Origin: Flavisphingopyxis soli
Lineage (GTDB): Bacteria > Pseudomonadota > Alphaproteobacteria > Sphingomonadales > Sphingomonadaceae
Assembly: GCF_007995095.1 (NCBI RefSeq)
Contig: NZ_VOPY01000001.1
Coordinates: 583,001-647,000 of the forward strand
Reading direction: 5' to 3'
Length of the DNA stretch: 64,000 nucleotides
This document shows, piece after piece, positions 8,187 to 33,385 of this stretch. Position 1 is the first letter of the stretch. Each line of letters begins with the position of its first letter. The position numbers were made by a program, and so were the translations under genes. A model generated the notes under the pieces. That model worked only from the letters and a program-made list of their open reading frames with translations. It was not told the DNA's origin and did no database searches.

Positions 8187-8263
8187 GCGCCCGTAGCTCA
8201 GCTGGATAGAGCACGAGACTTCTAATCTTGAGGCCGCTGGTTCGAATCCAGCCGGGCGCACCA
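8187..8263 (+). tRNA. tRNA-Arg, anticodon TCT
   Basis: A 77-base tRNA with an encoded CCA end. The acceptor stem pairs GCGCCCG with CGGGCGC; the D arm is GCTC...GAGC; the anticodon stem CGAGA/TCTTG encloses the loop CTTCTAA, giving anticodon TCT; the T arm is GCTGG-TTCGAAT-CCAGC. All four arms fold with normal lengths. It reads AGA codons. The gene-poor stretch starts immediately downstream. Confidence 0.98.
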
Positions 8264-29968: not shown

Positions 29969-30784
29969 GTGACCGGATCCGAAAAGGTCAACGAGAAGCT
30001 CGATCCGAAACAGGAACGCGAGGCCGAGAGCCGAGAGAACCCCAGCGCGCTGATCGTTCACGAGGCGATCCGGATAGAGGGCGAGAAGGAGCTCAACCGC
30101 CCCTCGTCGTCGATCGCCTGGTCGGGCCTCGCCGCCGGCCTGTCGATGGGTTTCTCGATGGTCGCAGAGGGCGTCCTCCACACCTTCCTGCCCGATGCGC
30201 CGTGGCGCCCGCTCGTCTCCAGCTTCGGCTACACCCTGGGCTTCCTCATCGTCGTCCTCGGGCGGCAGCAACTGTTCACCGAAACGACGCTCAACGTCAT
30301 CCTGCCGTTGCTCCACAGCGCCTGCCGCCTGCGCGACGTTGCGCGTTTCTGGGCGATCGTCCTCGCCGCCAACCTCGTCGGCACGTTGATCTTCGCCGTT
30401 GCCGCCTCGAGCGCGGTGTTCGTGCCCGAAGTCCGCGCGTCGTTCCTCGCGCTGGGGCTGGAGGCGGCGCAGGGCGGCTTCCTCGTCCTGTTCGCCCGCG
30501 CGATCTTTGCCGGCTGGCTGATCGCGCTGATGGTCTGGCTGCTCCCCGCCGCGGGTTCGGCGAGATTCCTCGTCATCGTCACGCTCGCCTGGATCGTCGG
30601 CATCGCCGGCTTCGCCCACGTCATCGCCGGATCGGTAGAGGTCATCTACGCCGTCATCGCCGGGCCGCTAAGCTGGGTCGATTACCTCGCGGGCTATCTG
30701 CTGCCCGTGCTGGCGGGGAATATCGTCGGCGGCGTCGTGCTCGTCTCGATGCTCAACCATGCGCAGGTTAAGGCGGAACTATAG
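29969..30784 (+). CDS. Formate/nitrite transporter (FNT) family channel protein
   Basis: 271 residues. GTG start with GAGGAGG at 29955-29961, seven bases upstream. A charged N-terminal tail of about 45 residues precedes six hydrophobic helices. Landmarks are LAAGLSMGFSMVAEGVL, FTETTLNVILPL and GFAHVIAGSVEVIYAVIAG, which match the YfdC-like branch of the FNT family. Probably an inner-membrane pentameric channel for a small anion; the ion is unknown. The last 287 bases are duplicated in decayed form at 32073-32352. Confidence 0.9.
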   Translation: MTGSEKVNEKLDPKQEREAESRENPSALIVHEAIRIEGEKELNRPSSSIAWSGLAAGLSMGFSMVAEGVLHTFLPDAPWRPLVSSFGYTLGFLIVVLGRQQLFTETTLNVILPLLHSACRLRDVARFWAIVLAANLVGTLIFAVAASSAVFVPEVRASFLALGLEAAQGGFLVLFARAIFAGWLIALMVWLLPAAGSARFLVIVTLAWIVGIAGFAHVIAGSVEVIYAVIAGPLSWVDYLAGYLLPVLAGNIVGGVVLVSMLNHAQVKAEL

Positions 30785-30921
30785 GGGGCAGGGGCTAACC
30801 CTTGCCAAAAATGTTTCCGCCGCGCACATCCGCATCATGTCCCCGATGAAACTCTGCAGCATGGTGATTTTGCAGGTGGCTATCCTGTCGGCTGGCGGAT
30901 CGGGCGCGGCAGGGGCGTTAT

Positions 30922-32073
30922 ATGCCCCCTGCTGAAACCGACCTTGTCCGGCTGGTGACGCAGGGTGCCGACGCGCTGCGCGGCAACCGCCCGGCCGATG
31001 CGCGCCGCGCGCTGGAGGCGGTGACCCAGACGGGCCGCGGCAATGTCCAGGTCTGGCTGCTCCTCGCCACCGCGTGCCGCGCGCTTGACGATCGTGCAGC
31101 GGAGGAGGCCGCGCTCGACGCGGTCCTCGCGCTCGATGCAAAGGTCGTCCGCGCGCGCATCATGAAGGCCGATTGCCGCGTGCATGCGGGCGATGAAGGC
31201 ACCGCGCTCGGCCTCTATACCAGCGCGCTGGCCCTCGCCTCGGGGCATCAGGTGCCCGATGACCTGGCAAGGGAACTCGCCCGCGTGGAGGCTGCCGTTG
31301 CTCACCTCAAGGCACAGCGCGAGACGCGGCGAGAGGGCTCGCTCATCGCTCAGGGGCTGCCCCCCGGCGACCGCAGCGAACGCTTCCAGCGCTCGCTCGA
31401 CCTGCTCGCCGGACGCAAGCAGATCTTCGTCCAGGATCCGACCAGTTACTACTTCCCCGATCTGCCCGCGATTCCCTTCTTTGATCGGCAGGATTTCGCC
31501 TGGGCACCCGCCGTCGAAGCGGCCACCGGGGCGATCCGCGAAGAGCTCGCGGCAATCGTCGCCGATGGCGGCGGCGACTTTCGCCCGTATCTCCACGGCG
31601 ATCCCAACCGGCCGCGCGTCGACGACAGTTCGCTGCTCGATAGCGCCGACTGGAGCGCGCTGTTCCTGTGCGAGAACGGGCGCGTGTTCGACGAAGCGGT
31701 CGCCCGCGCACCGCTCACCTGGGCCGCGCTGCAGGCCGCCCCACTGCCGTGGATCGCGCAGTCGCCCACCGTCATGTTCTCGCTGTTGCGTCCCGGCGCG
31801 CGGATCGCGCCGCATACCGGCACCCACAATGCGCGCCTGATCTGCCACCTGCCGATCGTCGTCCCGCCCGGCTGTGGCTTCCGCGTCGGCAGCGAACAGC
31901 GCGAATGGCGAGAGGGAGAGCTCCTGGTGTTCGACGATTCGATCGAGCACGAGGCATGGAACGACAGCGACCGCGACCGGGTGGTGTTGATCTTCGACAT
32001 CTGGCGCCCCGATCTGTCCGACCGGGAACGGCGCGAAGTCGGCGCACTGTTCGAGGCGGCACTGCTCGATTAG
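30922..32073 (+). CDS. TPR-containing aspartyl/asparaginyl beta-hydroxylase domain protein
   Basis: 383 residues. The first 130 residues look like TPR helices (LLLATACRALDDRAAEEAAL, LGLYTSALALASGHQV). The C-terminal half is a 2-oxoglutarate/Fe(II) dioxygenase of the Asp/Asn hydroxylase type: SLLRPGARIAPHTGTHNARL, ICHLPIVVPPGCGFRVG, then FDDSIEHEAWN supplying the second iron histidine. Related enzymes act on EGF-like domains, proteins or lipids; the bacterial substrate here is unknown. It is flanked by the intact FNT gene and a decayed FNT fragment, and its stop codon touches the fragment's edge. Confidence 0.9.
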   Translation: MPPAETDLVRLVTQGADALRGNRPADARRALEAVTQTGRGNVQVWLLLATACRALDDRAAEEAALDAVLALDAKVVRARIMKADCRVHAGDEGTALGLYTSALALASGHQVPDDLARELARVEAAVAHLKAQRETRREGSLIAQGLPPGDRSERFQRSLDLLAGRKQIFVQDPTSYYFPDLPAIPFFDRQDFAWAPAVEAATGAIREELAAIVADGGGDFRPYLHGDPNRPRVDDSSLLDSADWSALFLCENGRVFDEAVARAPLTWAALQAAPLPWIAQSPTVMFSLLRPGARIAPHTGTHNARLICHLPIVVPPGCGFRVGSEQREWREGELLVFDDSIEHEAWNDSDRDRVVLIFDIWRPDLSDRERREVGALFEAALLD

Positions 32074-32352
32074 CGCGATCTTTGCCGGCTGGCTGATTGC
32101 GCTGATGGTCTGGCTCCTCCCCGCCGCGGGCTCGGCACGCTTCCTGGTGATCGTCACGCTCGCCTGGATCGTCGGCATCGGCGGCTCCGCCGCCTTCGCC
32201 CACGTCATCGCCGGATCGGTAGAGGTCATATACGCCGTCATCGCGTCGATTACCTCGCGGGATACCTGCTGCCCGTGCTGGCGGGGAATATCGTCGGCGG
32301 CGTCGTGCTCGTCTCGATGCTCAACCACGCGCAGGTGAAGGCGGAGTTATAG
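32073..32352 (+). pseudogene. Decayed duplicate of the 3' end of the FNT channel gene
   Basis: Nearly identical to 30498-30784 (the last 287 bases of the FNT gene), in the same orientation. It begins exactly at the stop codon of the hydroxylase gene (GCGCGATCTTTGCC). Relative to the intact copy it has a 9-base insertion (extra Gly-Ser-Ala-like codons around 32180) and a 16-base deletion near 32248, which shifts the frame. It has no start region of its own. Not a functional channel. Confidence 0.9.
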
Positions 32353-32464
32353 CGGGAGTGGCTGGGATTGCCCGACTACTTTTATTAAGTTATAACCATC
32401 TTAAACAAAGAACTAGGTTTTTCTTTATCGTAGAATATAGGAACTATATTCCATCGATATTCGA

Positions 32465-32480
32465 CCGACCTGAGGGTCGG
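32465..32480. promoter_or_regulatory. Palindrome upstream of the toxin-antitoxin genes
   Basis: CCGACC-TGAG-GGTCGG, a perfect 6-bp-arm palindrome 18 bases before the antitoxin start, just upstream of the ribosome site GGGGA (32489-32493). The preceding 100 bases are AT-rich (TTTATTAAGTTATAACC...), unlike the surroundings, and probably hold the promoter. Autoregulation at such palindromes is usual for type II toxin-antitoxin operons; the role is inferred. Confidence 0.5.
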
Positions 32481-32497
32481 GGTCGTCTGGGGATGAA

Positions 32498-32986
32498 ATG
32501 AACAAATCTGAGTTGATCGAAAGGGTCGCTGAGGCGGCAGGACTGTCTAAGTCCGATGCATCCCATGCAGTCGATGCAGTGATGGGATCGATTTCTGCGG
32601 AGCTAGGACGGGGCGGCAATGTGCGGTTGGTTGGTTTCGGCACCTTCACAACGTCTTCACGTAAAGCCCGGCATTCGCGAGATCCCCGAACTGGCGAAAT
32701 CGTTTCCTTTCAAGCGTCAGTCAGCCCCTCCGTCAAGGCAGGGAAGCAACTTAAGGCAACCAACACTTCGCTCAAAATCACGAAAATCGGCAATTCCGCC
32801 GGGGTCATCCTGCCCAAGGAGGTGCTCGCGCATCTCGGCGCTTCGGCGGGGCAGGAGCTGTCGCTCGTCGTCACGCCGCGCGGGATCGAGCTGTCGTCGA
32901 GCGATCCCGATTTCGAAGAGCAGATGAAGGCCGCCCGCACGGTCATGACCCGGCGCAATCGCGCGCTTAGGGAATTGGCGAAGTAG
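32498..32986 (+). CDS. HU-AbrB/MazE fusion protein, probable antitoxin
   Basis: 162 residues in two domains. Residues 1-86 are a complete HU/IHF histone-like domain: MNKSELIERVAEAAGLSKSD at the start, VRLVGFGTFTTSSRKAR, and the DNA-bending tip RDPRTGE with Pro63. Residues 90-162 are an AbrB/MazE/SpoVT-type antitoxin (SLKITKIGNSAGVILPKEVL, then TPRGIELSSSDPDFEEQM, ending RRNRALRELAK). The usual antitoxin start Met before N-T-S-L is replaced by a Thr codon (ACC), so the antitoxin can be made only as a fusion. The HU part is lower in GC than the rest. The Doc toxin gene follows after nine bases. Antitoxin role inferred from pairing. Confidence 0.88.
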   Translation: MNKSELIERVAEAAGLSKSDASHAVDAVMGSISAELGRGGNVRLVGFGTFTTSSRKARHSRDPRTGEIVSFQASVSPSVKAGKQLKATNTSLKITKIGNSAGVILPKEVLAHLGASAGQELSLVVTPRGIELSSSDPDFEEQMKAARTVMTRRNRALRELAK

Positions 32987-32995
32987 GCGTCGGCG

Positions 32996-33385
32996 ATGGC
33001 GCATCGCTGGACCTGGGTGCTCGATGCCGTCGCGCTCGCCGCGCATGCCGAACAGCTGACCGAACATGGCGGGGCCGACGGGGTCAGGGACGAAGACGGC
33101 CTGGCCAGCGCGATGGCGCGCCCGCGCAACCTTGCCGGCTATGGCGATCCCGATGCCGCCGCGCTCGCCGCGGCTTATGCCTTCGGCATCGCGCGCAACC
33201 ATCCCTTCGTCGACGGCAACAAGCGGACCGCGGCGGTCGTCGCCGAAACCTTCCTCGCGCTCAATGGCCACCGGCTGAAGGCGAGCGATGCCGAACTCGT
33301 TGTGACGTTCGTCGCCCTCGCCGCGGGAGAACTGACCGAAGACGAGCTCGCGCACTGGCTGCGGACACACATCGCGGCCGACTGA
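32996..33385 (+). CDS. doc: Doc-family toxin (death on curing)
   Basis: 129 residues. Fic-fold toxin with the motif HPFVDGNKRT at residues 69-78, between the canonical Fic HPFxxGNGR and the Doc form with Lys in place of the final Gly. Doc of phage P1 phosphorylates EF-Tu and halts translation. The N-terminal stretch LTEHGGADGVRDEDGLASAM and PRNLAGYGD match the 'death-on-curing' family. It is encoded nine bases after the HU-AbrB fusion gene, the normal antitoxin-toxin order. All motif residues are present, so the toxin is probably active. Confidence 0.93.
   Translation: MAHRWTWVLDAVALAAHAEQLTEHGGADGVRDEDGLASAMARPRNLAGYGDPDAAALAAAYAFGIARNHPFVDGNKRTAAVVAETFLALNGHRLKASDAELVVTFVALAAGELTEDELAHWLRTHIAAD

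Follow-up and report, generated by a model that had tools for sequence, protein, structure and literature searches.

We describe an antitoxin gene in which a near-complete HU domain runs in frame into a MazE/AbrB-type antitoxin directly before an intact doc toxin gene, a real and seemingly singular variant of a known toxin–antitoxin (TA) type. On balance we favour reading the locus as a composite MazE–Doc TA operon whose Doc antitoxin probably still works and has gained an N-terminal HU module. In support of this reading, both domains and Doc are recognized and intact, positions invariant in the family are preserved in AbrB and Doc, and the promoter with its putative operator is kept at family spacing; counting against a working HU module are the 11 of 53 conserved positions that it has lost, several of them at the arm tip. 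The fusion comes from a single genome, in which selection after the fusion is inseparable from selection before it. The features, numbered by position in the 64-kb window (the whole stretch of DNA analysed), are as follows:

32368..32396, + strand: retained ancestral abrB-doc promoter and putative operator, TTGCCC -17 bp- TATAAC (family motif)
32397..32497, + strand: AT-rich leader (42% GC) from promoter to HU start, with the GAATATAG and CCGACCTGAGGGTCGG elements inside
32498..32758, + strand: HU domain, residues 1-87 (PF00216; predicted HU fold; own hup nearest)
32759..32770, + strand: junction/linker T-N-T-S (ACC at the position of the orthologues' ATG; low model confidence)
32771..32986, + strand: MazE/AbrB (doc_partner) domain with predicted toxin-binding C-terminal helix (TIGR02609; orthologue identity)
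32996..33385, + strand: Doc (Fic-fold) toxin with intact HPFVDGNKRT (PF02661, TIGR01550)

The fusion and its junction

One open frame (32498-32986, +; 162 aa) encodes the HU domain, about four further residues and then the MazE/AbrB antitoxin. Residues 1-87 match Pfam PF00216 over profile positions 1-87 of 90 (E 2.9e-26). The AbrB half matches both Pfam MazE PF04014 (residues 94-133, E 1.7e-7) and, across residues 92-162, the doc_partner family TIGR02609 of NCBIfam (E 1.4e-16, 60.6 bits against a cut-off of 55.9). The codon aligned with the ATG start of AbrB orthologues is ACC in the fusion, and no in-frame ATG, GTG or TTG occurs between codons 44 and 109. Under normal initiation there is thus no way to translate AbrB except within a fusion, which makes the fusion, judged from the sequence, obligatory. 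The missing ATG may have been lost by mutation or by removal at the junction, both being compatible with the sequence. An earlier note on this DNA had claimed an in-frame and obligatory fusion, with a conserved Pro63 tip, lying before doc; all of this is borne out, as the HU half contains R61-D62-P63 and the intact Doc gene lies 9 bp 3' of the fusion ORF.

The occurrence of the fusion in one genome only would fit a sequencing or assembly error that joined two genes, an explanation we regard as extremely improbable. No obvious single-base change separates HU from AbrB, and neither of the two alternative frames around the junction has a close-by ending able to split the ORF. A single-base error is also a poor explanation because the AbrB start codon and the adjacent promoter are both missing too. 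In addition, the genome is 99.99% complete in four contigs, and the locus lies well within a contig of 1.34 Mb.

The antitoxin half and its toxin are well preserved. The AbrB half is 62-79% identical to its best family orthologues and, the lost M1 and N2 aside, breaks none of 31 conserved positions, while Doc (PF02661, E 1e-16; TIGR01550, E 1.4e-16) differs at one of 41. The pair has the make-up of a type II mazE(AbrB)-doc module, with a SpoVT/AbrB-domain antitoxin ending in a doc_partner-family toxin-binding C-terminus and an adjoining Doc toxin with the HxFx(D/N)GNK motif (HPFVDGNKRT), and the AbrB half would be expected to neutralize Doc through its C-terminal helix. The AlphaFold model of the fusion contains an HU fold, an AbrB domain of moderate confidence and a long C-terminal helix, joined by linker residues (84-97) of low confidence; its pTM of 0.35 means that the relative placement of HU and AbrB is not readable from it.

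The retained promoter and putative operator

Overlooked in the earlier note, the family's abrB-doc promoter, with its putative operator, is still present 5' of the HU segment. Its TATAAC sits within the palindrome GTTATAAC (32389-32396), which occurs once in the window (0.03 copies expected), and when the 141-bp segment was shuffled 200,000 times by mononucleotide, the arrangement of TTGCCC, 17 bp and TATAAC within GTTATAAC arose 12 times. In the family abrB-doc loci that carry the motif, exactly 6 nt separate the end of TTG-(16/17)-GTTATAAC from the ATG of the antitoxin (26 of 26 such loci, a few fetched orthologues being without the GTTATAAC motif), with a spacing from TTG to TATAAC of 17 in 24 loci and 16 in two. 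Since the -10 box lies 6 nt before the ATG, established promoter geometry predicts a leaderless antitoxin mRNA for these loci, in which the operator would coincide with the -10 box.

In the fusion locus the GTTATAAC promoter is 101 bp upstream of the HU start codon; by its sequence, then, the operon's old promoter is kept, with the HU segment interposed before abrB codon 2. The distance from promoter to abrB codon 2 is about 365 bp (leader plus HU), against 6 nt plus the start codon in the orthologues. Sequence and comparison together place a hup copy, with a 101-nt leader, after the promoter and its putative operator (GTTATAAC) and ahead of abrB codon 2, in the place of the orthologues' 6 nt and start codon, and this arrangement makes the fusion obligatory. 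Translation of the antitoxin would thereby have changed from leaderless to leader-dependent. The AbrB half would still bind the predicted GTTATAAC operator, with its C-terminal helix still neutralizing Doc.

Nearest to the HU start, the leader contains a palindrome, GAATATAG-GAA-CTATATTC (32433-32451), followed by a hairpin, CCGACCTGAGGGTCGG (32465-32480); neither has a counterpart in the orthologues' upstream regions. Folding of the leader RNA was not significant (z -1.22), and the leader had no match in Rfam.

The AT-rich leader, together with a degenerate transporter remnant directly upstream and rearrangement nearby, could also be taken to mean that the module is decaying, the fusion antitoxin being impaired and the operon silent or its toxin no longer important. 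We consider this very unlikely, for neither Doc nor the AbrB half shows damage or loss of conservation, the promoter is retained, and selection should act against an active Doc whose antitoxin has failed.

Origin and conservation of the HU half

The HU half is a whole domain, with G46-F47-G48, R55, R61, P63, K80, G82, K83 and K86 all kept, including the conserved GFG, R61, P63 and C-terminal KxGKxLK of HU proteins. PDB HU chains were the best structural matches of its predicted structure in Foldseek (block means of pLDDT 64-93 across residues 1-80); the model fits an HU fold and is uninformative on the dimer. The half breaks 11 of 53 conserved family hup positions, several of them at the arm tip (S58R, T59H, G60S, N62D), whereas the genome's own hup breaks none.

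That hup is a separate, single-domain gene (C1:1133002-1133265), making the fused HU a diverged second copy, one that is not a hup orthologue in the sense of a single-domain protein of about 90 aa in the hup role. HU/IHF-type matches elsewhere in the genome comprise this intact gene, C1:850931-851191 and C1:797999-798202. In the family sample the closest relatives of the HU half are the own hup (66% amino acid identity) and then the same-genus hup (62%), and the tree joins the HU half to the own hup with moderate support (80/83), a placement made unsure by its long branch (end branch 1.02 vs 0 for the own hup). These data suggest that the copy was probably derived from the hup of the organism's own lineage. 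A recent duplication of the own hup is contradicted by a nucleotide identity of only 58% and by the want of a common leader.

The earlier note had also remarked that the HU half is lower in GC and read this as a sign of recent fusion. The difference is real (GC3 0.54 vs 0.84 in AbrB and about 0.82 in the neighbours), but the inference of recency is not supported: sampled family hup genes span GC3 0.49-0.88, so that low GC alone does not date the fusion, and the long branch beside the own hup and the 11 changed positions point to a long history of the HU copy.

The same observations bear on whether the HU half does anything. The main rival reading, possible if somewhat unlikely, is that the HU copy is a passenger, an N-terminal extension that is tolerated but does nothing on DNA itself and matters only as supplier of a start codon and leader after loss of the AbrB start. 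The long branch would fit this, as would the broken positions in HU while AbrB and Doc are preserved. The open frame fits it too, since an in-frame antitoxin under selection downstream would keep the HU frame free of stops even if HU were idle; thus, although 97% of runs gained a stop in a neutral-drift simulation, the open-frame argument for selection on HU is weak. On the other hand, key DNA-contact and core residues are kept, and amino acid identity to hup (66%) is far above that simulated neutrally (expected 30%, maximum 45%), with change biased to third positions (67, 74 and 31% identical at the three codon positions; dN 0.41, dS 3.4, the latter saturated). The amino acid identity argument for selection on HU holds, yet, like the third-position bias, it may reflect time before the fusion.

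Under the reading we favour, the HU half would also, though less surely than the AbrB half keeps its role, add a second dimer interface and a weakly specific DNA contact beside the predicted operator, and so may tighten repression, keep the antitoxin on DNA or alter antitoxin stability. A more elaborate proposal seems to us doubtful: that hup was captured behind the original promoter to give a regulator in which the same chain forms both an AbrB dimer that binds the operator sequence-specifically and an HU dimer that bends DNA, tying toxin expression to local DNA supercoiling or nucleoid state.

Distribution of the fusion and flanking DNA

The earlier note had proposed a search for HU–AbrB fusions beside doc in other genomes. 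We searched with the full fusion protein in samples of the genus (two genomes), family (299), order (398), class (385) and phylum (160), which overlap and cover roughly a thousand distinct species, and in further genome, viral, plasmid and phage collections. Neither the taxonomic samples nor the phage, plasmid or viral collections yielded a second fusion, at score cut-offs (1e-23 to 1e-27) that a distant fusion could escape in most taxonomic samples. Matches reported outside the window were HU alone, AbrB alone, or alignments running through stops or upstream sequence, and among the matches listed for the genome-contig collection most were plain HU genes. An AbrB homologue occurs in 72 of the 299 family genomes, and none of these was seen joined to HU. 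Plasmid and phage matches over query 1-138 were considered as fusions; the one inspected has a stop after HU followed by read-through alignment. A genome match over query 1-115 proved to be HU with a chance extension through stops. In the literature outside most subscription journals we likewise found no record of HU–AbrB antitoxins, and the view that the architecture is undescribed agrees with the lack of another example in the genome, phage, plasmid and viral samples.

Upstream of the locus, 32073-32356 is a degenerate copy of 30498-30788, the 3' end of an upstream membrane-transporter-like gene (92-94% identical in ungapped blocks, with indels of +9 and -16 bp); the copy begins at the stop codon of an aspartyl/asparaginyl hydroxylase gene and ends about 12 bp before the retained -35 box. 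The flanks of the fetched hydroxylase loci contained no match to the transporter, Doc, the fusion or the downstream gene. The sole tRNA of the window is a tRNA-Arg (TCT) at 8187-8263.

Relationship to known systems and significance

The locus resembles TasA-TasB, a composite mazE-doc TA system of Bacillus thuringiensis pGI1, and the TIGR02609 'doc_partner' family in that the gene of a MazE/AbrB-type antitoxin is immediately followed by that of a Doc-type toxin, but differs in its N-terminal HU domain and in having lost the antitoxin's start codon and adjacent promoter position. The consulted passages on TasA-TasB mention an N-terminal antitoxin fusion with a putative acetyltransferase in Vibrio cholerae and none with HU (PMC1626090). 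PMC4803016 reviews both SpoVT/AbrB antitoxins and the regulation of Phd-Doc. As in Phd-Doc of phage P1, a Fic-fold Doc toxin follows its antitoxin gene, although the antitoxin here is of AbrB/MazE rather than Phd type.

Compared with the nucleoid protein HU (HupB), to which residues 1-87 correspond, with the own hup nearest, the module is joined to an antitoxin, has other residues in place of the final three or four of HU and carries the 11 changes noted above. HU-HIG and other HU-domain fusions (PF18291) likewise join an HU domain to another module; however, the best match here is PF00216, PF18291 matching only in part (26.5 bits vs a cut-off of 26.2), and the described PF18291 partners are wHTH, Ig and Gly-rich modules, AbrB not being among them.

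The fusion shows in nature how a nucleoid protein can be captured into a TA operon whose old promoter can still be recognized, and it allows the effect of a second DNA-binding dimer on TA autoregulation to be tested simply. The promoter pattern of the family abrB-doc loci, with its putative operator, is new here, and for these systems the family-wide palindromic -10 box (GTTATAAC) provides a concrete prediction of both an operator and a leaderless mRNA.
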